The position numbers were made by a program, and so were the translations under genes. The notes beneath the pieces were generated by a model. That model saw only the letters and a list, made by a program, of their open reading frames with translations. It was not told the DNA's origin and searched no databases. Below, piece by piece: positions 3,987-14,206 of a stretch of 64,000 bases of DNA. Position 1 is the stretch's first letter, and every line of letters starts with the position of its first letter. Where the stretch lies: contig JAGWNF010000013.1 of NCBI GenBank assembly GCA_028871455.1, forward strand, positions 1 through 64,000, read 5' to 3'. The DNA is from Alphaproteobacteria bacterium. Lineage in GTDB: Bacteria; Pseudomonadota; Alphaproteobacteria; ATCC43930; CGMCC-115725.

Positions 3987-5933
3987 TTACGGACTGTTGC
4001 CCGAGAGCGGCGCGGCCTGGATCGATTGCGGCGCGCCGGTCGCTTCGGACGGCGGCGCGTTGCCCGACGGTTGCGTGCCGACCGACGGCGCGTGCGAAAT
4101 CACCACCTCGCGCGGCGGTCCATTGGCGACCGGAGCGCCCGCGCCGCTGCTCGCCGACGGTGGCGCGGCCGGCGCGGTAACGGGCGTCGACGGCGCGCGC
4201 GAGATCACGACCTCGCGCGGCGACGACGCGGGTGCGGTGGCGACCGGTCCATTCGACGCCAGCGCCGGAGTTGGCGCCGTTGCAGGTGCCGGCGCAGGTG
4301 TGGGCGCGGATGCCGGCGCCGACGTGCCGAGAGTGCCGAGCGAATGCGGCTGCTCGCCGTTCACGTAGCTCACGCCGTTCACCGTGACAGTGCCGCCCGG
4401 CGGCGCCAACGAGCCGGCAGAAGGCGCGGCTGAGGCCGCGGTCGGCGGCGCAGCAGCCGGCTGCGGCGCCGACGGCGGCACGGACGCCGTCGAAGGCGCC
4501 GGCGGCGCGGCTTGCGGATGAAGCACGGCTTCGATCGCCGGCGGCAGCGCGTCTTCGCCGGGCGCCTTGGGCGCCGGCGCCGGCTTGACCGCGGCGGTGC
4601 GGGCTGGCTTGGCGGCCGGCGCGGCGGCGGTCCGTGTCGGCGTCAGCTTCACCGCCGGCAAATCCGGCGGCAGCGGCGGCGGCACCGCAGCGATTTTCGG
4701 CTGGAGCATGGCCCGCGGCAGATCCGCCGCGGTCGCATGCGGCGCGGGTGGCGGTGCGGCGGCGGCGTGAACCGGTGGCGGCGCGGGCGGCGGCGACGGC
4801 GCGGTCGCCGCCGGCGTCGGTGCGCTCGGCGTCGGCATCGCGGTCGGCGTCTGCGGCGGTGTCGGCAATGCAGTGCCGGTCGCGGCGGTTTGGACCGGCG
4901 ACGGGCCGGCGCGATACCAGGCGGCGATGGCGCCGACCGCGAGCAGCAGCACGCCGGCCGCGGCGGCGTAAGGCCAGTGCCGGCGGCGACGCGGCCGCCA
5001 ATCGGTCAAGCCGGAATCCGGCCGCAAGGCGCCGGTGCGCAGGCTCGGCTCGTGGCGACGGCCGGCGCCGGTCGGACGCAGCGGAATCACCGGCTCACCG
5101 GCTTCGAGCGAGAATTGCGGCTCGGCGCGGCCGGCAAAATGCGGCTCGGCACGTGCAGGCTCGGCCGACGCGCGACGCGGCTCGTCCCCCTTGTCGTCGA
5201 ACCGCAGCGTCGCCTCATCGGGCGGCGCCATCGACGGCGACGGCGGTGTCGGCGCGACGCGGCGCGGCACCAGACGGACATCCTCGTCGGACGGCTCGGC
5301 CGGCAGCTGGCGCGGCACCAGCCGCGGCAACTCGGGCTGGGCGGCACGCGGCGGCGCAGCCTTGGGCGCTTGCGACGGCCGCTGCGGCGGCGGCTCGGCG
5401 CGGACCTTCGGTTCGGACGACGGGCGCGACGGTGGACGCGCGGGCGCCGGCTCGGCGGTAATCGGGTGACGCTCGGCCGAAGGCGCGCGGCGAAGCTGCA
5501 CCAGCATCAGATCGGGCGCGGCGAGCAACAGCTCGACCACCGCCTCGCACCAGTTGGGATTGCCGATCGTCCCCTGCACGGGCGCGAGCGCGGCGGCCAG
5601 CAGATCGCCGACGACGCCGATCTCGCCGGCGCCGACGGCGACCGGCACGATCGGCAGCGCGCCGGCGCGCAGCGCCGGAAAGCCGGTGCGCGCCAGGAAA
5701 TCCTCGAGCGGCGCCACCGCCGCTTCGGGCGAACCGGTATCGACCAGCGCGATGCCCTGGTCGGGATGGAGCGCGAGGAAGCGCACCCAGGGCGGGCCGT
5801 CAGCACCCGACGGGCGGCGATTGGCCAGCACCACCCAGGGCGCCGGCAGGGCCGCCAGCGCCTCGCGCAGGCGCAGCGCGACGCGCCGTTCGGCCAGCGG
5901 CGCCACGCGTCGACCGGTAATTCCGTTAAACAT
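3987..5933 (-). CDS. Ala/Pro-rich single-span membrane protein with NERD-like N-terminus
   Basis: A 648-residue protein. Residues about 1-150 form a compact domain (AERRVALRLREALAALP, WVVLANRR, VRFLALHPDQGIALVDT). The helix/strand order is reminiscent of nuclease-related NERD domains, but no active-site set is convincing. Residues 150-320 are disordered and Pro/Arg-rich, with LVPRQ/LVPRR repeats. One transmembrane helix follows (HWPYAAAAGVLLLAVGAIAAW, about 317-338). The rest is a long Ala/Pro-rich segment with a twice-repeated REVVIS(R/H)APS motif near the end, plus GTVTVNGVSYVNG. I do not recognise a function. It stands alone; the nearest minus-strand neighbour begins 236 bases away. Confidence 0.6.
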   Translation of the reverse strand: MFNGITGRRVAPLAERRVALRLREALAALPAPWVVLANRRPSGADGPPWVRFLALHPDQGIALVDTGSPEAAVAPLEDFLARTGFPALRAGALPIVPVAVGAGEIGVVGDLLAAALAPVQGTIGNPNWCEAVVELLLAAPDLMLVQLRRAPSAERHPITAEPAPARPPSRPSSEPKVRAEPPPQRPSQAPKAAPPRAAQPELPRLVPRQLPAEPSDEDVRLVPRRVAPTPPSPSMAPPDEATLRFDDKGDEPRRASAEPARAEPHFAGRAEPQFSLEAGEPVIPLRPTGAGRRHEPSLRTGALRPDSGLTDWRPRRRRHWPYAAAAGVLLLAVGAIAAWYRAGPSPVQTAATGTALPTPPQTPTAMPTPSAPTPAATAPSPPPAPPPVHAAAAPPPAPHATAADLPRAMLQPKIAAVPPPLPPDLPAVKLTPTRTAAAPAAKPARTAAVKPAPAPKAPGEDALPPAIEAVLHPQAAPPAPSTASVPPSAPQPAAAPPTAASAAPSAGSLAPPGGTVTVNGVSYVNGEQPHSLGTLGTSAPASAPTPAPAPATAPTPALASNGPVATAPASSPREVVISRAPSTPVTAPAAPPSASSGAGAPVANGPPREVVISHAPSVGTQPSGNAPPSEATGAPQSIQAAPLSGNSP

Positions 5934-6169
5934 GACCCGTCCCCTTTAACCCGCGCGGCCGCACCCGGCACCGCGCACCATTCCCATCCTGCGCGCCCAT
6001 TGCGGACTGACAAGGGCGCGCGCGTGTCAAAATCATGGCGAAACCTGGGCGCCGCCAGCGGTCCGCGCCGCCGCCGCGCCCCGCGGGAGCGACGTTATGC
6101 CCGATTCGGGCCGCCAACGCACGCCACGATGTCGCAAGCCGGCGGCAGCCCGCCGCCGCGCCGGTGGTC

Positions 6170-6484
6170 TCACGTCTTGTCGAGAACGTCGCCGATCCAG
6201 CTCAAGGCCGCAACCGAGCGCGGCAGGCCGAGGGTCGGAATCGCCAGCACCGCGACCTGGCGGATTTCCGCGGCGGTGCAGCGATCGGCGAGTGCGCGCC
6301 GCGTGTGGGAATGAACCGCGCCTTCCGATCCGAGACCGATCGCCAGCGCGAGCTTGATCAGCCGCCGGCTCTTGGCGTCGAGCGGGCCGGCCTTGGCACA
6401 TGACTCGCCCAATTTCTCGTAAGCGGCCCAGACCTCGGGACAAGTGGACTGCAAATTCTCGAGCGGCTTGGGGATCTTCGGCAT
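6170..6484 (-). CDS. Carboxymuconolactone decarboxylase (AhpD-like) family protein
   Basis: ATG at 6484 is preceded by GGAGCG and gives a 104-residue protein. The longer upstream frame has no ribosome site and odd composition. The core SRRLIKLALAIGLGSEGAVHSHTRRALADRC...EIRQVAVLAIPTLG is the CMD fold (all-helical, usually hexameric or trimeric). AhpD-type members carry a CxxC redox pair before the His. Here that motif reads EGAVHSH, so the Cys pair is absent and peroxidase-reductant chemistry is unlikely. It is divergent from the cytochrome c gene, and the FNR box at 6589-6602 lies between them, so it may share the oxygen control. Confidence 0.75.
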   Translation of the reverse strand: MPKIPKPLENLQSTCPEVWAAYEKLGESCAKAGPLDAKSRRLIKLALAIGLGSEGAVHSHTRRALADRCTAAEIRQVAVLAIPTLGLPRSVAALSWIGDVLDKT

Positions 6485-6588
6485 CGTTTCGCTCCATCGG
6501 CAGGACATACATGCGCGCCGGAGAGATCGCCGGCGTGCGGCGAATAAAATAAAAAGGCACCGTATCGCAGGCGTGCGCACGGCGGCAA

Positions 6589-6602
6589 TTGATCCATATC
6601 AA
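6589..6602. promoter_or_regulatory. Perfect FNR/FixK-type operator (TTGATCCATATCAA)
   Basis: TTGAT-CCAT-ATCAA matches the FNR/ANR/FixK consensus TTGAT-N4-ATCAA at every position. It sits in the divergent interval between the CMD gene and the cytochrome c gene. An activator site at -41.5 would put the rightward transcription start near 6637, favouring translation from the in-frame ATG at 6641 or 6653 rather than 6629. Confidence 0.8.
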
Positions 6603-6628
6603 CGCCGGCGGCATCGGCGTGCGATTTC

Positions 6629-7345
6629 ATGCGCGGCCGTATGACGACGAAAATGTCCACCCCACGCGGCGGTCGGCCGCGCCGCTCTTCTGTTGCCGCC
6701 GGATTTCGTCTGCTGGCTGCGCTCGGCGCCGGCACGCTGGCCGCGACGCTGGCGCCGTCGGCGGCCATGGCGCAATCGTCCGGCACGACGGAATTCGCCG
6801 CCGGCTCGGCGCCGCTGCTGGCCGATCCGCAGGGCACCCCGCTCGGCACCGTGACGCCGGGCACGCCGCTGACGGTAATCAAGCAAACCGGCCGTCTCGC
6901 CGAGGTGCGCATCGACGGCTGGTCGATGGCCGGCGCGGAAACCGTCGTCTTCGCCGCCAAGGGATTGCGCATCGTGCTGGCAGAGCTCTCGGCGGACCGT
7001 CCGGCCAACCGCACGGTCGGTGCGCGCAGCGAGGACCAATACGGCGGCGTTTGGGAGCAGGTGACGGTCACCGGCTGGGTATCGGCGAGCGACCTCGTCG
7101 CCGCCGTCGAGCCGGTCTGGCAAAAAGCTCACGTCTTGTTCGCGCAGCGGTGCACAAAATGTCATGCGCTGCACCAGCCGACCGAATTCACCGCCAATCA
7201 GTGGCCGCACATCCTTCAGATCATGACCAAGCGCGCCGTGCTGACCGCGGATCAAACCGCCTTGGTGACGAAGTATCTGCAAATCCACGCGCGGCAGCCG
7301 GGCACGCCGGCTACCGGTCCGAAGGGGCCCGGACCGCGCCGATGA
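6629..7345 (+). CDS. Exported monohaem cytochrome c with SH3-like domain, TorC-tail type
   Basis: A 238-residue protein (start at 6629; 6641 or 6653 are good alternatives). A signal peptide ends near MAQ (residue 49). The next domain, APLLADPQGTPLGTVTPGT and VIKQTGRLAEVRIDGW, has the look of a bacterial SH3 domain. The C-terminal domain binds one c-type haem at CTKCH (residues 175-179). It is followed by TANQWPHILQIM, a pattern like the C-terminal monohaem domain of the TorC/DorC pentahaem quinol dehydrogenases, with Met near 205 as likely sixth ligand. The four-haem NapC-like part of TorC is absent. Directly upstream of the molybdoenzyme gene and between two FNR boxes, it is probably the periplasmic electron shuttle to that enzyme (inference). 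Confidence 0.75.
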   Translation: MRGRMTTKMSTPRGGRPRRSSVAAGFRLLAALGAGTLAATLAPSAAMAQSSGTTEFAAGSAPLLADPQGTPLGTVTPGTPLTVIKQTGRLAEVRIDGWSMAGAETVVFAAKGLRIVLAELSADRPANRTVGARSEDQYGGVWEQVTVTGWVSASDLVAAVEPVWQKAHVLFAQRCTKCHALHQPTEFTANQWPHILQIMTKRAVLTADQTALVTKYLQIHARQPGTPATGPKGPGPRR

Positions 7346-7382
7346 GATTGCTGCGACTGATTCGCATTAAAATCCTGCAATA

Positions 7383-7396
7383 TTGATCCAGATCAA
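7383..7396. promoter_or_regulatory. Perfect FNR/FixK-type operator (TTGATCCAGATCAA)
   Basis: TTGAT-CCAG-ATCAA is a second perfect consensus site, 78 bases upstream of the molybdoenzyme start. An activator at -41.5 would give a transcription start near 7431 and a leader of about 43 bases, which is a normal arrangement for an FNR-activated gene. Confidence 0.82.
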
Positions 7397-7473
7397 GCCC
7401 GCGCTGCGCCGCGTCCTGGAAAATTGATTGCCAGTCGCACCCGCGACGGCGCGCTTCAGGGAGAAACCAGGCC

Positions 7474-9903
7474 ATGGACAAGATTTCGCGGCGGGAACTG
7501 ATCCAGCTTTCGGGCACTGCCCTCGCCTCGACGATGATTCCCGGCGCCGCCGCCGCGGCCGTCGAGGAAAAGACCGTCCTAACCGCCACGCACTGGGGCA
7601 TCGTCGAGGCGGTCACGCATGGCGGCCGCCTGGTGAAGACGGTGCCGTTCGCCAAGGACCCGGCGCCCACGCCCATGATCACGGCGTTTCCGGACCGCGT
7701 CCATGCGCGCACACGGGTCCGCTATCCCATGGTCCGCGGGGGATTCCTGAAGCACGGCGCCGGCGGCGACACGGCGCTACGCGGCGCCGACGAATTTGTG
7801 CGAGTGAGCTGGAACGAGGCGCTCGACCTCGTCGCCAACGAGCTGAAGCGCGTCAAGGCCAAATACGGCAACGCCGCGTTCTGTCCCGGCACCGTCGACT
7901 GGCAATCGGCCGGCCTGCTGCATAACGCCGCGACGCTGACCCGGCGCATGCTCGGCCTGCACGGTGGCTTCACCGACGCCACCGGCGATCCCAGCATCGC
8001 GGCCGCGATGGTGATCCTGCCGCACGTCGTCGGCGATCTCGAAGTCTACGACCAGCAGACCGCCTGGCCGACGATCATCGAGAATTCCAATACCGTGGTT
8101 CTCTGGGGATGCTGCCTGCTCAAGAACGACCAGATCGGAACGCATCCGGCCGACCATTACGCCTATGTTGCGCTGAAGCAGCTGCGCGAGAAGGCGGCGG
8201 CGGGCAAGGTCGACATCATCTCGATCGATCCGCGCATCACCGACACCGCGCAGTATCTCGACGCGCACTGGCTCGCGCCGCGTCCGAACACCGACACTGC
8301 GCTGATGCTGGCGCTCATGCACACGCTCTATACCGCGAAGAAGTACGACGCCGACTTCATCAAGAAATACACCTACGGTTTCGACGAATTCCTGCCCTAC
8401 CTGCTCGGCAAGTCGGACGGCACGCCGAAAACGCCGGAGTGGGCGGCGGGCATCACCGGGCTCAAGGCCGAGGATATCGTCGAGCTGGCGCATCGGCTGG
8501 CGCGCGGCCGGACCATGCTGATCTCGGGCTTTGCGATCCAGCGCGCCGATCACGGCGAGCAGCCTTACTGGGCGCTGGTGACGCTGGCCGCGATGCTCGG
8601 CCAGATCGGCCTGCCCGGCGGCGGATTCGGCACCAGCTACCATTACGACAACGGCGGCTCGCTGACCGCCAAGGCGCCCGGCATCGCCGGCATCTCGGCC
8701 GGCGACAATGCAATCAAGACCGCGCTGCCCTTCGAGCGCGTCCACGAGATGCTGCTGCAGCCGAACCAGCCGTACGACTACAACGGCCAGAAGATGACCT
8801 ATGCCGACATCAAGATGATCTATTGGGCGGGCGGCAACCCGATGACGCATCTCTGGCAGACCAGCAAGGTGATCGAGGCGTGGCGGCGCCCCGAGACCGT
8901 CGTCGTGGCCGATCCGTTCTGGACGCCGACGGCACGGTTCGCCGACATTGTCCTGCCTGCGACGACGACCTTCGAGCGCAACGACATCGAGTTTTCGGGC
9001 GCCTATTCGCAGAAATACATCGTCGCCATGCACAAGGCGGTCGAGCCGGTTGGCGAATCGCGCAATGACTACGACATCATGCTCGGTCTCGCACACCGGC
9101 TCGGCTTCGCCGACAAATTCACCGAGAAAAAGAGCGAGATGGACTGGCTGCGCTCGTTCTACGAGCAGGCGCAGAAGGCGGCGAAGCCGCTCGGCGTCGC
9201 CATGCCGGAATTCAACGAATTCTGGAACGGCCCGGGATATATCGAGTTCCCGATCCCGCCGGACGCGAAGGACTACGTCAAGCACGCCGATTTCCGCGCC
9301 GATCCGGCGAAGAATCCGCTCGGCACGCCGTCGGGCAAGATCGAGATCTATTCGAAGACCATCGCCGCGTTCAAGTACGACGATTGTCCGCCGCACCCGA
9401 CCTGGATCGAGCCGGCGGAATGGCTCGGCGGCGCCGGTGCTCAAAAGCATCCGCTGCACATCGTCTCGCCGCATCCGAAGCATCGCCTGCATTCGCAGCT
9501 CGACAACACGGTGCTCCGCCATAGCTACGAGATCGGCGCGCGCGAGCCGATATGGCTCAACTCCGATGACGCGAAGGCGCGCGGCATCGCCCAGGGCGAC
9601 ATCGTGCGCGTCTTCAACGACCGCGGCTCGATACTCGCCGGCGCCTTCGTCACGCCGCGCATGCGCCCCGGCGTCGTCTGCCTCCACGAAGGCGCCTGGT
9701 ACGACCCGGACAAGCCGGGCAAGCTCGACGCGACGTGCAAGCACGGTCTGATCAACGTGCTGACGATCAACAAGGGCACGTCGAAGCTGGCGCAGGGCAA
9801 CATCGCCAATACGGCGCTGGTCCAGGTCGAACGCTACCGTGAGGCACCGCCGAAGATCACCGTGTTCACGCCACCGCGGGTGGTTCGGCAACGGCGGGGT
9901 TGA
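7474..9903 (+). CDS. Periplasmic molybdopterin oxidoreductase of the TMAO/DMSO reductase (TorA/DorA) type
   Basis: An 809-residue bis-MGD enzyme. The N-terminus is a Tat signal (SRRELIQLSG, residues 5-14). There is no N-terminal CxxCxxxC cluster, so it belongs to the TorA/DorA/BisC group without an FS0 Fe-S centre. By spacing to Rhodobacter DMSO reductase (Trp116, Ser147, 31 apart), Trp143 and Ser174 (in TGDPSIAAA) are the equivalents, Ser174 being the probable Mo ligand. The Tyr114 equivalent is Val141, as is broadly the case in TMAO rather than DMSO reductases. Other family motifs: PHVVGDLEVYDQQTAWP, NTDTALMLALMHTLY, MLGQIGLPGGGFG, GGNPMTHLWQT. AGGGAGAAACC precedes the ATG. No TorD chaperone is nearby. 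Substrate cannot be fixed from sequence; TMAO, DMSO or another S-/N-oxide are candidates. Confidence 0.88.
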   Translation: MDKISRRELIQLSGTALASTMIPGAAAAAVEEKTVLTATHWGIVEAVTHGGRLVKTVPFAKDPAPTPMITAFPDRVHARTRVRYPMVRGGFLKHGAGGDTALRGADEFVRVSWNEALDLVANELKRVKAKYGNAAFCPGTVDWQSAGLLHNAATLTRRMLGLHGGFTDATGDPSIAAAMVILPHVVGDLEVYDQQTAWPTIIENSNTVVLWGCCLLKNDQIGTHPADHYAYVALKQLREKAAAGKVDIISIDPRITDTAQYLDAHWLAPRPNTDTALMLALMHTLYTAKKYDADFIKKYTYGFDEFLPYLLGKSDGTPKTPEWAAGITGLKAEDIVELAHRLARGRTMLISGFAIQRADHGEQPYWALVTLAAMLGQIGLPGGGFGTSYHYDNGGSLTAKAPGIAGISAGDNAIKTALPFERVHEMLLQPNQPYDYNGQKMTYADIKMIYWAGGNPMTHLWQTSKVIEAWRRPETVVVADPFWTPTARFADIVLPATTTFERNDIEFSGAYSQKYIVAMHKAVEPVGESRNDYDIMLGLAHRLGFADKFTEKKSEMDWLRSFYEQAQKAAKPLGVAMPEFNEFWNGPGYIEFPIPPDAKDYVKHADFRADPAKNPLGTPSGKIEIYSKTIAAFKYDDCPPHPTWIEPAEWLGGAGAQKHPLHIVSPHPKHRLHSQLDNTVLRHSYEIGAREPIWLNSDDAKARGIAQGDIVRVFNDRGSILAGAFVTPRMRPGVVCLHEGAWYDPDKPGKLDATCKHGLINVLTINKGTSKLAQGNIANTALVQVERYREAPPKITVFTPPRVVRQRRG

Positions 9904-9995
9904 CCGGCTGTCTCCGGGTGTTCGACCATCGGCGGAGCGTGCGTTGAGCGGCGAGAGCGGTTTCCGCCCGATGCGTATCGAAGCGAAACGCGCCG

Positions 9996-10514
9996 ATGAA
10001 CACTGACAACGCGAACGGCAACGACGGCGGCCGGCGCAGCTTCCTCGCCTGGGCGGTTGGCGGCATCTCGGCCGCGCTCGGCGCGATCCTTGCTTGGCCG
10101 ATGGTCAGCTTCCTCGTCGGGCCGATCTATCGCCGGACCGCCATGCGCTTCACCGCAGTCGGCAAGCTCGACCAGGTCGGCACCGATCCGGTGAAGCTGA
10201 CATTTCCACTGCTTGAGGAAGACGCCTTCCTGCGCGAAAGCCGCCAGCATGCAGTGTGGGTCGTCAAGGACGGCGGCAAGCTTCTCGTCTTTTCGCCGAT
10301 CTGTCCGCACCTGAGCTGCTACTACGACTGGAATGCGGCGGGCGGAAATTTCGTCTGCCCGTGCCACAACAGCGTTTTCTCCGCGACCGGCACCGTGCTC
10401 AGCGGCCCGGCGCCGCGGCCGCTCGATACGCTGCAGTACAAGGTCGTTGACGGCCGGCTGATGGTCGCCTGGGAACGCTTCCGGGCGGGCATCGCCGAGA
10501 AGATCCCGATCTAG
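9996..10514 (+). CDS. Rieske 2Fe-2S protein of a cytochrome bc/b6f-type complex
   Basis: A 172-residue protein with a twin-arginine N-terminus (GRRSFLAWAVGG) and one membrane anchor (about residues 14-42). The cluster-binding boxes are CPHLSC (starting near residue 103) and CPCHNS (near 125), with a Pro-rich loop GPAPRPLDTLQY after them. This arrangement is that of quinol-oxidising Rieske proteins rather than dioxygenase ferredoxins. It starts 92 bases after the molybdoenzyme and ends 4 bases before the cytochrome b gene, so it is co-transcribed at least with the latter. The loop CYYDWNAAGGNF between the boxes is short, closer to b6f/Gram-positive forms than to proteobacterial bc1 (inference from visual comparison). 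Confidence 0.88.
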   Translation: MNTDNANGNDGGRRSFLAWAVGGISAALGAILAWPMVSFLVGPIYRRTAMRFTAVGKLDQVGTDPVKLTFPLLEEDAFLRESRQHAVWVVKDGGKLLVFSPICPHLSCYYDWNAAGGNFVCPCHNSVFSATGTVLSGPAPRPLDTLQYKVVDGRLMVAWERFRAGIAEKIPI

Positions 10515-10518
10515 CGCC

Positions 10519-12414
10519 ATGGCATCCGCTCCAGACTGGCTGCGCCGCGCCGGCCGCTGGATCGACGACCGGCTGCCGATGGCGGTCCTCGGCGAGCTGA
10601 TGCGCGAGCCGATCCCCGGCGGCGCGCGATTCAGCTACGTGCTCGGTAGCGCAACGCTCTACCTGTGCGTCCTCCAGGTGGTCACCGGAATCTGGCAGAT
10701 GTTCTATTACGCGCCGACGGTCGACCACGCCTATGCCAGCGTCAGCTACCTCAGGCTGCAGGTGCCGTTCGGCTGGCTGATGCACGGCCTGCATTACTGG
10801 GGCGCGCAGGCGTTCATCGTCGTCATGGGCCTGCACGTCGTCCGCGTCTTCGTCTGGGGCGCGTACAAAGCGCCGCGCGAGCTGACCTGGATCATCGGCG
10901 TGTTGCTGCTGGTTGTTGGCGCCACGCTCGTCTTCACCGGCGCCCTGCTGCCGTGGGATATGCTCGGCTATTGGGCCGCCGACGTCGGTACCAGCATGGC
11001 CGGCACGGTTCCCTGGGTCGGCGAATTCGCGCGCGCCATGCTGCGCGGCGGCGCCGACATGGGCCAGCTCACCCTGTCGCGCTTCTTCACGCTACACGTG
11101 ATAATCCTGCCGGCGGCGCTGGCGCTGCTGATCGCGCTCCATCTCGTCGCCTTCCGCCGGCAGGGCAGTGCTGGGCCGTGGAACCCGGCGCGGGGCGCGA
11201 CCACCGGACCCTTCTGGCCCGATCAGGTATTCAAGGACCTGCTGGTCATCGCCGGCCTAACCATCATCCTGGTCGGCCTCGCCGCCTTTCTTCCGGCGCC
11301 ATTCTCCGGCGAGGCCGACCCGCTCAACAGTAGCCACATCCCCAAGCCGGAATGGAACTTCCTGTTTCTGTACGAGGCGGTGAAGGCGTTCAAGGGCGCC
11401 TGGGAACCGGTCGGCACCGTCGGCGTGCCCACGGTTCTGCTGCTCCTGCTGCTGTCGCTGCCGTTCGTCGACCGTCGGCCCGAGCGCACGCCGTGGAAGC
11501 GACCGGTCGCGATGATCGGCGGGTTCGTCTATCTCGGCGGCGTCATTGTGCTGACGGTGCTGGGGGATCAAGGACCGGTCAACGTCGCACCGGGCGGCAC
11601 GGCGACGGTCGCCAGTGCGCCCGTCAGCGCGTCAGCCACCGCGCCGGATGCGCGGGTTGCGCTTGGCAAGACGCTCTTCGCCAGTGCCGGCTGCGTCGCC
11701 TGTCACGCGATCAACGGCCAAGGCGGGACGATCGGTCCCGATCTTGCCGGCGAGGCGCAAAAAGGCCGCACCTCGGCATGGCTCGAAACCCAACTGGTCT
11801 CGCCCAAGGCGCATCTGGCGAGCGGCATCATGCCCGCCACGACGCTCGCCCCGCCCGAGCGTGCGGCCGTGATCGCGTATCTACTGAGTCTGACGCCCAT
11901 GACCGCCGCGGCGGCATCAGCGGCGGTACCGACGCTGCCCGCCGCCGGCCAGCAGGGACCGCCGGGCCCAGCGAGCCGGATGATCGGCGATGCCGCCAAC
12001 GGCCGCGTGCTGTTCGACGGCGGCTGCGCGTCCTGCCACGGCCAAGCCGCGCATGGCGCTCCCACGCCGCCGGCAGCTGCCGCCGGCGCGGTCAATCTCG
12101 CCGAGCTCGGCGCCGGCCTCTTCGATGCCGACGCGCAGCATTTCGCCGACAATATCGACCGCTACATTCAACACGGCTCGCGTGGCACCGGCGCCGACGC
12201 GTCGGTCTATATGCCGGCCTTCGGGGATACCGACAGCCTGACCCAGCCGGAGATCGCCAACCTCGAGGCCTATATCCTCGCCGCCAACGGCGTGGACCGC
12301 GCAGCGATCGTCGACCCCGGCATCGAGCCAACGATATTCTTCGTTGTCACCGCCGTGGTTTTGGGCGGTGCCATCCTGATCGGCTTCGCGGGTACGGCGC
12401 TCCGCCGCCGATGA
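10519..12414 (+). CDS. Cytochrome b (b6-type) fused to two c-type haem domains
   Basis: A 631-residue fusion. Residues 1-220 are a cytochrome b6-like core: LQVVTGIWQMFYYAPT, haem-b histidines H92/H106 in helix B and H193/H208 in helix D, PWDMLGYWA, and RRQGSAGPW. The helix D histidines have 14 residues between them, as in b6f, not 13 as in proteobacterial bc1. The b6 haem-ci Cys is not present (YVLGS). A subunit IV-like half follows with the Qo motif PEWN (277-280) where PEWY is usual. The C-terminus carries two cytochrome c domains, CVACH (392-396) and CASCH (503-507), with Met ligands likely in GIMPAT and YMPAFGD, then a final membrane helix. It oxidises quinol and passes electrons to c haems, replacing a separate cytochrome c1 (inference). 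Confidence 0.88.
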   Translation: MASAPDWLRRAGRWIDDRLPMAVLGELMREPIPGGARFSYVLGSATLYLCVLQVVTGIWQMFYYAPTVDHAYASVSYLRLQVPFGWLMHGLHYWGAQAFIVVMGLHVVRVFVWGAYKAPRELTWIIGVLLLVVGATLVFTGALLPWDMLGYWAADVGTSMAGTVPWVGEFARAMLRGGADMGQLTLSRFFTLHVIILPAALALLIALHLVAFRRQGSAGPWNPARGATTGPFWPDQVFKDLLVIAGLTIILVGLAAFLPAPFSGEADPLNSSHIPKPEWNFLFLYEAVKAFKGAWEPVGTVGVPTVLLLLLLSLPFVDRRPERTPWKRPVAMIGGFVYLGGVIVLTVLGDQGPVNVAPGGTATVASAPVSASATAPDARVALGKTLFASAGCVACHAINGQGGTIGPDLAGEAQKGRTSAWLETQLVSPKAHLASGIMPATTLAPPERAAVIAYLLSLTPMTAAAASAAVPTLPAAGQQGPPGPASRMIGDAANGRVLFDGGCASCHGQAAHGAPTPPAAAAGAVNLAELGAGLFDADAQHFADNIDRYIQHGSRGTGADASVYMPAFGDTDSLTQPEIANLEAYILAANGVDRAAIVDPGIEPTIFFVVTAVVLGGAILIGFAGTALRRR

Positions 12415-12520
12415 CCGGTGCGGTCGGGAGTTGCGGTGCCAGTCGTCGCGCGGGTCGCCGGCGTTCTGGTATCTGATCTCAGTCGCAGGAAGTGACATAG
12501 GGAAGTCTCGGAGACCAGCG

Positions 12521-13441
12521 ATGCCTTCGGCCAAGGAAGCGACCGCCGCCCGTCTTGCCGCAGGGCCGCGTCTCACATCCTGGATCATGGCGGCCCGTCC
12601 GCGGACGCTGGGTCTTTCGATGACGCCGGTCGCCGTCGGAACGGCACTGGCCTGGGCGACCGACCGAAAGGTCCATGGGCTGGTGGTTCTTGCGGCATTG
12701 ATCGGCAGCGTGTTGATCCAGGTCGGGACCAATCTGCACAACGACGCGCTCGATTCCGAGCGCGGCGGTGACCGGTCCGACCGACTGGGGCCACCGCGGG
12801 TCACCGCCTCCGGACTGCTGAGTGCGACTGCGGTCAAGCGTGGTGCCATAATGTGTTTTGCCGGCGCCGCGCTCGTCGGTCTCTATCTTGTGTCGGTCGG
12901 CGGCTGGCCCATTCTCGTTCTGGGCCTGCTCTCGATCGCGGCCGGCCTGGCTTATACCGGTGGTCCCCTGCCGATCGCCTATACGCCTCTCGGCGAGGTC
13001 TTCGTCGTGGCGTTTTTCGGAGTCGGCGCCGTCTGCGGGACATACTGGCTCAACACCGGACATCTCGGCGTGGCCGCGATCGGTGCGAGCTTTTTGGTAG
13101 GACTGCCGGCGGGCGCGGTCCTCATGGTCAACAACCATCGCGACGCCGAAGCCGACACGCGTATCGGACGACGGACGCTCGCCGTCCTGGTCGGTCCGCG
13201 GATCACGATCTGGATTTACGCCAGTCTGATGTTGCTGCCGTTCGCGTTCCTGCCGCTGCTCAACTTCGCCCTTCCGCACGGGCGCGTCTGGCCCGCATTG
13301 CTCGCGCTGCCACCGGCACTGCTGCTGGTGTGGCGGTGCGCCCGCGAGCCGCGCGGCCGCGGCCTCAACCGGATTCTGGCCTACACCGTTCAAACGCAGG
13401 TGCTGTTCAGCCTGCTGCTATGCGCGGGACTGTTGTCATGA
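12521..13441 (+). CDS. menA: 1,4-dihydroxy-2-naphthoate polyprenyltransferase (menaquinone biosynthesis)
   Basis: ATG at 12521 is preceded by CGGAGACC; the longer frame upstream has no ribosome site. The 306-residue membrane protein is a UbiA-superfamily prenyltransferase of the MenA type. It has the first Asp-rich motif NLHNDALD (71-78), then DRLGPPRVTASG, and the second motif NNHRDAEADTRIGRRTLAV typical of MenA, with eight to nine hydrophobic helices. MenA attaches the polyprenyl tail to DHNA to give demethylmenaquinone. Most Alphaproteobacteria make only ubiquinone, so this gene just behind the Rieske/cytochrome b genes hints at a menaquinone pool feeding that complex. No other men or mqn genes are in the window. 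It overlaps the convergent next gene by 6 bases. Confidence 0.85.
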   Translation: MPSAKEATAARLAAGPRLTSWIMAARPRTLGLSMTPVAVGTALAWATDRKVHGLVVLAALIGSVLIQVGTNLHNDALDSERGGDRSDRLGPPRVTASGLLSATAVKRGAIMCFAGAALVGLYLVSVGGWPILVLGLLSIAAGLAYTGGPLPIAYTPLGEVFVVAFFGVGAVCGTYWLNTGHLGVAAIGASFLVGLPAGAVLMVNNHRDAEADTRIGRRTLAVLVGPRITIWIYASLMLLPFAFLPLLNFALPHGRVWPALLALPPALLLVWRCAREPRGRGLNRILAYTVQTQVLFSLLLCAGLLS

Positions 13442-13921
13442 GGGTCGATCGCCCGATGGCCGGGCGATGTCGCTATCGCGCCTCGCGCCATAGAGCGTCT
13501 CCGCCCGCCGCAGGAAGGCATCGACCATGACCCGGGCGAAGTGCGGCTGATCGAACAGCAACCGCATCGCGTGCCGAACGATGCGCGAGCGCGGCTCGAG
13601 CGCACTGCTGTATTCGACGATCGTGTGACCGGCACCGGCCGGGACGAAGGTCCAATGCTGGTGGAACCGCTTGAACTGCGGATCGCGGGAGGTGACGTCG
13701 ATACCGCGCGGCGGGTCGAATACGGCGCGGGTGGCAAACTGCGTCCGTAGGCCTTTGAACGCCACCACCTGGTCGACTTCGAGCACGTTGCCGTCGCGCC
13801 GACGGATCCGCACGGCGACGAACCACTCGAGAAACTCCGGATATCTCTCGATATCGGCAACAACGTCGAACAGCTGGCGTGGCGTAAACGCCAGCCGGCG
13901 GCTCTCAAAGTAACTCGCCAT
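13436..13921 (-). CDS. Coq10/RatA-like START-domain protein (type II toxin-antitoxin RatA family)
   Basis: A 161-residue SRPBCC protein. FTPRQLFDVVADIERYPEFLEWFVAVRI is the start of the Coq10/RatA helix-grip fold, and YSSALEPRSRIVRHAMRLLFDQ its end. In mitochondria and bacteria Coq10-type proteins bind ubiquinone and support respiration; E. coli RatA was reported to block 70S assembly, but most alphaproteobacterial copies are probably quinone-binding. It is the last gene of the long minus-strand run, after tusA. The final 6 bases overlap menA on the other strand. Confidence 0.82.
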   Translation of the reverse strand: MASYFESRRLAFTPRQLFDVVADIERYPEFLEWFVAVRIRRRDGNVLEVDQVVAFKGLRTQFATRAVFDPPRGIDVTSRDPQFKRFHQHWTFVPAGAGHTIVEYSSALEPRSRIVRHAMRLLFDQPHFARVMVDAFLRRAETLYGARRDSDIARPSGDRPS

Positions 13922-13966
13922 GAAACCCAGAATACAGGAAACGGCAATCGGGCCGCACGCGGCGGC

Positions 13967-14206
13967 TTAGGGCTTCTGCAGCGTGAAGATCAGGACGCCA
14001 TCGGGTTCCTCGCGGCAATCGAGGAGATGCGCGCCGGTGGTCTTGCAGAAATGCTCGAAGTCCTTCACCGCGCCGGGATCGGTCGCCTCGACTCGCAGGA
14101 CGCCGCCGGGCTTCAGGTCCTTCATCGCCTTGCGCGCCTTCAGCACCGGCAGCGGGCATTTGAGGCCCTTGGCGTCGAGAGTGAAATCGGGCGCGGGCGC
14201 GGTCAT
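13967..14206 (-). CDS. tusA: TusA/SirA-family sulfur carrier protein
   Basis: A 79-residue protein with the TusA signature at residues 10-20: LDAKGLKCPLPVLKARKAM, where the Cys of CPxP carries the persulfide. The two-layer alpha/beta pattern follows (RVEATDPGAVKDFEHFCKTTGAHLL). TusA-type proteins relay sulfur to tRNA thiolation, molybdenum cofactor maturation or sulfur oxidation. The gene starts 3 bases after the parC stop, so it is in the same transcript. A role in supplying sulfur for the molybdoenzyme cofactor is possible but not shown. Confidence 0.88.
   Translation of the reverse strand: MTAPAPDFTLDAKGLKCPLPVLKARKAMKDLKPGGVLRVEATDPGAVKDFEHFCKTTGAHLLDCREEPDGVLIFTLQKP

Follow-up and report, generated by a model that had tools for sequence, protein, structure and literature searches.

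We found that a 64-kb stretch of an alphaproteobacterial genome (the window) carries an acquired island in which a b6-type cytochrome b fused to two haem-c domains (cytochrome b-cc) lies in an apparent operon with genes for a TorB-like cytochrome, a TorA-type reductase, a Rieske protein and a MenA-type prenyltransferase. We give a probability of roughly two in three to the reading that the imported Rieske/cytochrome b-cc complex is the dedicated donor of a respiratory chain to an S/N-oxide, most likely TMAO, which would be electrogenic, under FNR control and probably fed by menaquinol. The first-pass annotation missed the operon (torB, torA, the Rieske gene, menA and the FNR boxes), and it is this context that gives the function. 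The host genome is a multi-contig draft of 3.0 Mb that is 96% complete.

The fused cytochrome b and its operon

The cytochrome b-cc gene is the fourth of five on the forward strand, in the order torB-torA-Rieske-cytb/cc-menA, and the gaps of 4 to about 130 bp between the five suggest a single operon. The features are as follows.

6139-13946, no strand: acquired island, about 7.8 kb, delimited by flank alignment to same-genus genomes
6170-6580, minus strand: carboxymuconolactone decarboxylase/AhpD-like gene (PF02627, 55 bits), divergent from the operon
6589-6602, plus strand: perfect FNR box TTGATCCATATCAA, an exact match, upstream of torB
6629-7345, plus strand: TorB-like monohaem cytochrome (TIGR02162, torC, positions 199-380 of 387, 113.5 bits)
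7383-7396, plus strand: perfect FNR box TTGATCCAGATCAA, an exact match, upstream of torA
7474-9903, plus strand: TorA/DorA-type molybdopterin S/N-oxide reductase (TIGR00509, 1074 bits vs. a cut-off of 1018)
9996-10514, plus strand: Rieske [2Fe-2S] protein (PF00355)
10302-10379: Rieske cluster motifs CPHLSC and CPCHNSVF, with Ser kept and Tyr replaced by Phe
10519-12414, plus strand: cytochrome b fused to two haem-c domains, 631 aa, from Pfam domains and motifs; the Pfam scan places Cytochrome_B (PF00033) at residues 31-216, Cytochrom_B_C (PF00032) at 266-355 and the haem-c domains at 380-458 and about 491-586
11095-11142, plus strand: helix D haem-b histidines His193 and His208, with 14 residues between them
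11347-11358, plus strand: Qo motif PEWN, residues 277-280
11692-11706, plus strand: first haem-c site CVACH, residue 392
12025-12039, plus strand: second haem-c site CASCH, residue 503
12431-13441, plus strand: MenA-type prenyltransferase (TIGR00751 menA, 161.6 bits vs. a cut-off of 102), likely start near 12521
13436-13921, minus strand: COQ10/RatA-like START-domain protein (PF03364, 86 bits), convergent with menA and within the island

The identity of the product of 10519-12414 as a b6-type cytochrome b with two fused haem-c domains is confirmed. Three features named in the first-pass annotation were borne out: the helix D spacing of 14 residues rather than the 13 of proteobacterial bc1, the missing haem-ci cysteine, and the C-terminal fusion to two cytochrome c domains, each with its CxxCH site. 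His193 and His208 are invariant among the aligned family members. The alphaproteobacterial bc1 cytochromes b that we fetched, including the host's own second copy, show 13 residues and PEWY wherever these motifs are readable. Val occupies the position of the b6 haem-ci cysteine, and none of the ten aligned family members has Cys there. The chain has four haem-b histidines, a Qo motif and two CxxCH, and the adjoining Rieske gene completes the set of elements that defines a Rieske/cytochrome b complex with fused dihaem c. The protein is not an alphaproteobacterial bc1 cytochrome b, given its spacing, its fused haems c and a tree that rejects the grouping, nor a b6f protein, given that PF00033, PF00032 and two haem-c domains share a single chain that lacks the haem-ci cysteine. 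Its best PDB match is to b6 (188 bits) over bc1 (163 bits). An AlphaFold model of the fusion built from ten sequences was set aside (mean pLDDT 49), and a C-terminal membrane helix at residues 604-630 is predicted in this low-confidence model only.

The PEWN motif proposed earlier is present, but its suggested importance for quinol oxidation is weakened by the comparison with relatives, among which 8/10 aligned family members have PEWN and two Syntrophaceae members have PEWY. PEWN is not a universal variant of ubiquinone-using relatives, an outcome for which the first-pass annotation had left room; our survey found it only in relatives from phyla generally known to use menaquinone. In yeast, PEWY is P271-E272-W273-Y274 (PMC9162462), so the Asn of PEWN replaces the less studied Tyr274 and not Tyr279, the tyrosine best known from work on the Qo site and the equivalent of R. 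capsulatus Y302 that was used in a QM model (PMC10583091). The counterpart of Tyr279, five residues past the fourth PEWY position, is Tyr285 in the window protein, and every aligned family member keeps both this tyrosine and the Glu of the Qo motif. PEWN can therefore not be read as a missing key tyrosine at the Qo site. It is a clade marker and hints faintly at a functional change.

The TorB-like protein has one CxxCH and lacks the tetrahaem part, whereas clear TorC matches of other alphaproteobacteria mostly have five haems; it is a separate monohaem homologue of the TorC C-terminal domain, as TorB is defined in C. jejuni. TorA belongs to the TorA/DorA/BisC family, scoring above the TIGR00509 cut-off and that of PRK15102 TorA (928 vs. 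909), with the DMSO reductase 1eu1 as its best PDB match (886 bits), and it keeps the Mo-ligand Ser147 and Trp116 of R. sphaeroides DMSO reductase as Ser174 and Trp143. DMSO reductase Tyr114 is replaced by Val141, a change that would favour TMAO over DMSO. By homology, the substrate would be an S/N-oxide, most likely TMAO. MenA scores above its curated cut-off and has both aspartate motifs (NDALDSERGGD and NNHRDAEAD). The COQ10/RatA-like gene that converges with menA is a possible quinone-handling partner.

In the Rieske protein, the first cluster motif has Ser where nearly all others examined show Gly, and the second has Asn, as in verrucomicrobial relatives, where bc1 proteins have Gly. The Tyr-to-Phe exchange was dropped as a sign of menaquinone, because Phe also occurs in several other Pseudomonadota bc1 Rieske proteins and the Kuenenia Rieske protein Kustd1480, which has Phe, lies at +335 mV (PMC12954380).

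The sequence TTGAT-N4-ATCAA occurs exactly twice in the 64-kb window, compared to an average of 0.02 in shuffles, which never gave two. These consensus matches point to FNR-type anaerobic control of torB and torA, and the position of the first box suggests a true torB start at 6641 or 6653.

Horizontal origin of the island

We assessed the relationships of the cytochrome b core using a tree of 45 sequences. In a scan of named genomes, full-length relatives (45-51% identity) turned up in MAGs labelled Syntrophaceae, Geobacteraceae, Deltaproteobacteria, Nitrospirae and Bacteroidetes, and the features of the fusion are kept across this family at such identities, which argues that they are not due to chance. 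The window protein falls in a clade of these fused b-cc proteins (support 100/97) from Thermodesulfobacteriota, Nitrospirota, Myxococcota and Bacteroidota, which sits beside planctomycete/verrucomicrobial fusions and b6, while the host's own bc1 falls within the alphaproteobacterial clade (100/100). Grouping the window protein with alphaproteobacterial bc1 was rejected (AU test, p = 7e-10), and a constraint with all sampled Pseudomonadota bc1 gave p = 0.02. The phyla in which the fused relatives occur are generally known as menaquinone users. TorA, TorB or MenA was found within 10 kb of none of the close cytochrome b homologues, so the pairing of complex and TorAB is known from this genome only. 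In one Syntrophaceae MAG (L033:9998-12454) the cytochrome b-cc is continuous with a Rieske domain in a single reading frame of 818 aa, apparently placing the whole complex, with cytochrome b, two haems c and Rieske, on a single polypeptide.

The flanks of the island match same-genus genomes up to about 5910-6138 and again from about 13947-13968. In one of these genomes (G001) the flanks lie about 240 bp apart (L139 6197/6440) and the site is empty, in a second (G003) they are separated by restriction-modification-like and other genes, and in a third (G002) potassium-transport-like genes adjoin ParC, the genes in both cases being named by reading. The segment 6139-13946 is therefore an island, inserted at a place that differs among these genomes. 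The place beside parC (window 5910-13968) is an insertion hotspot in the genus.

A search of 61 genomes taken as relatives gave no other copy of the fused cytochrome b-cc. When 398 genomes of the phylum were scanned with a family profile, only two others (G497 and G546, from one family outside the class) exceeded 470 bits and the rest reached at most 220, in a scan that scored few candidates per genome and could miss a weaker second copy; TorA was not found near either of the two proteins above 470 bits. Two genomes of one family outside the class (L142 and L143) encode a further b6-type cytochrome b-c, along with extra c-type cytochromes and a Rieske protein whose N-terminal extension is long (about 298 aa). 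Neither GC content (67% in the island vs. 63% to its right and 70% to its left) nor codon usage was informative, and no match in plasmid records covered 80% of the fused cytochrome b or of TorB. The horizontal acquisition put forward in the first-pass annotation is supported by the tree and AU test, the empty same-genus site and the lack of a further copy in the 61 genomes.

Proposed electron route and source of quinol

TorC-type donors contain a tetrahaem NapC-like domain, and TMAO or DMSO respiration via such donors is usually considered to conserve no energy at the reductase. A search of the host genome for NapC/NrfH/TorC-type quinol dehydrogenases (PF03264) gave no match, with a positive E. 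coli control, and the only TorC-related sequence is the one-haem TorB, so that the Rieske/cytochrome b complex is the likely donor to TorB and TorA. The C-terminal haem domain of E. coli TorC has been proposed as the feeder of TorA (PMC11727998), a free TorB homologous to this domain occurs in C. jejuni, and a C. jejuni qcrABC mutant neither grows on nor reduces TMAO (both PMC6195509).

In the proposed chain, quinol, most likely menaquinol, would be oxidised at the Qo site of cytochrome b-cc, with the first electron passing from the Rieske cluster through the two fused haems c to TorB and on to TorA, which would reduce the oxide in the periplasm. The second electron would cross the membrane via the two b haems to the Qi site and, being recycled in a Q cycle, would make the chain electrogenic, at the 2 H+/2e− put forward for C. 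jejuni. In the absence of oxygen, FNR-type control would switch the chain on. MenA would supply a low-potential naphthoquinone, a role that we propose because ubiquinol has too little driving force for TMAO reduction against the proton-motive force; the C. jejuni authors argued that menaquinol, unlike ubiquinol, can drive it (PMC6195509).

The assumption in the first-pass annotation of a quinone other than ubiquinone is made likely by the adjoining MenA and by these energetics, which also make menaquinol the most likely donor, but it is tempered by the quinone genes of the host. The genome encodes an ordinary bc1 (petABC) as a second complex and UbiG (267 bits), while matches to MenB (best 139 vs. 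a cut-off of 343) and MenD (63 vs. 244) stayed below cut-off and MqnA/MqnD (PF02621) had no match, which leaves MenA an orphan as far as searched and menaquinol not assured. A MenA homologue with 67% identity in another genus of the family (G027) adjoins hydrogenase-maturation-like genes; at L101:3582-4925 this MenA follows a small protein with CMTWH where a haem-c motif CMTCH would be expected, possibly a decayed cytochrome. Lactiplantibacillus plantarum has menA and menG without the rest of the menaquinone pathway (PMC8303990), and its use of external DHNA is reported elsewhere (PMC10746273, PMC9888254). A bolder version, tentative and on balance doubtful, is that the island is a mobile, self-contained proton-pumping cassette for S/N-oxide respiration, with its own Rieske/cytochrome b complex and with menA as a quinone-switch gene, and that the ubiquinone bacterium receiving it would make menaquinone from its neighbours' DHNA only during anaerobic respiration.

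It is possible, if unlikely, that the complex oxidises ubiquinol as a second bc1 for TorA, with MenA an unrelated passenger and with either a low proton-motive force or a substrate of higher potential. UbiG alongside the undetected MenB, MenD and MqnA/D would fit this, as would the orphan-looking MenA of the other genus, which lies away from any such complex, and the Glu at the second Qo-motif residue, which is that of PEWY complexes at a position linked to quinone type (PMC9162462). However, menA of the window lies in the same island directly 3' of the cytochrome b gene, the relatives in the cytochrome b clade belong to menaquinone phyla, and a step from ubiquinol at +90 mV to TMAO at +130 mV is too small to power a Q cycle against the usual proton-motive force (PMC6195509).

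We consider it improbable that the complex is instead a general alternative complex III serving an oxidase (e.g. cbb3) at low oxygen, with TorA and TorB merely operon-mates: some close cytochrome b relatives do lie near oxidase-like genes (L034 and L041, from the ORFs as read) and none beside TorA, but the order of the genes and the FNR boxes link torB and torA to the complex, and a TorB without its usual tetrahaem partner, in a genome with no PF03264, leaves the complex as the obvious donor. That the operon belongs to another organism through an error of assembly or binning is very improbable; although the genome is a multi-contig draft and same-genus relatives lack the operon, the latter lies inside a 64-kb stretch of a single contig whose right flank (ParC, RecO, Era) shares 75-95% identity with proteins of the same genus and whose left flank matches too, and different insertions occupy this place in neighbouring genomes, which fits an insertion hotspot.

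Comparison with known systems

If this reading is true, TMAO or sulfoxide respiration, thought to conserve little energy here, would pump protons, and the island would show how an electrogenic TMAO route may spread horizontally, a route made directly testable by transfer of a single operon. It also raises the question of whether gaining menA alone is enough for a bacterium to import a low-potential pool of quinone.

The closest parallel is QcrABC-dependent TMAO respiration in C. jejuni (Garg, Taylor, Kelly 2018, PMC6195509), which likewise has a soluble monohaem TorB, TorA, a Rieske/cytochrome b complex with dihaem c and no TorC for TorA. There, genetics showed that a bc complex can feed TorA, whereas here the predicted pieces sit together, in one apparent operon with menA and with the c haems fused to cytochrome b. 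Qcr is a general complex III in C. jejuni, which makes menaquinones and not ubiquinone, while the host here is an alphaproteobacterium with an ordinary bc1 and UbiG. Kuenenia Kuste3096-3097 (PMC12954380) similarly combines a b-type core and dihaem c on one chain with an adjoining Rieske gene, but the protein of the window falls in a different clade (100/97), in which PEWN predominates, and its gene lies with those for TorAB and MenA.

Cytochrome b6f shares the helix D spacing of 14 and the LPWDxxGYWA- and RRQGxxGP-like segments, whereas the window protein has PEWN and lacks the b6/subunit IV split, the haem-ci cysteine and cytochrome f. The TorCAD/DorCA systems share the TorA/DorA catalytic subunit and the fifth-haem domain, with a Rieske/cytochrome b complex here in place of the tetrahaem quinol dehydrogenase part of TorC. 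Lactiplantibacillus plantarum, a Gram-positive lactic acid bacterium, also has menA without the upstream men genes (PMC8303990), in contrast to a host with UbiG and an ordinary bc1. All components belong to families already described, and C. jejuni provides a precedent for the principle; a linked and imported set that includes menA in a UbiG-bearing alphaproteobacterium was not found in the literature searched.
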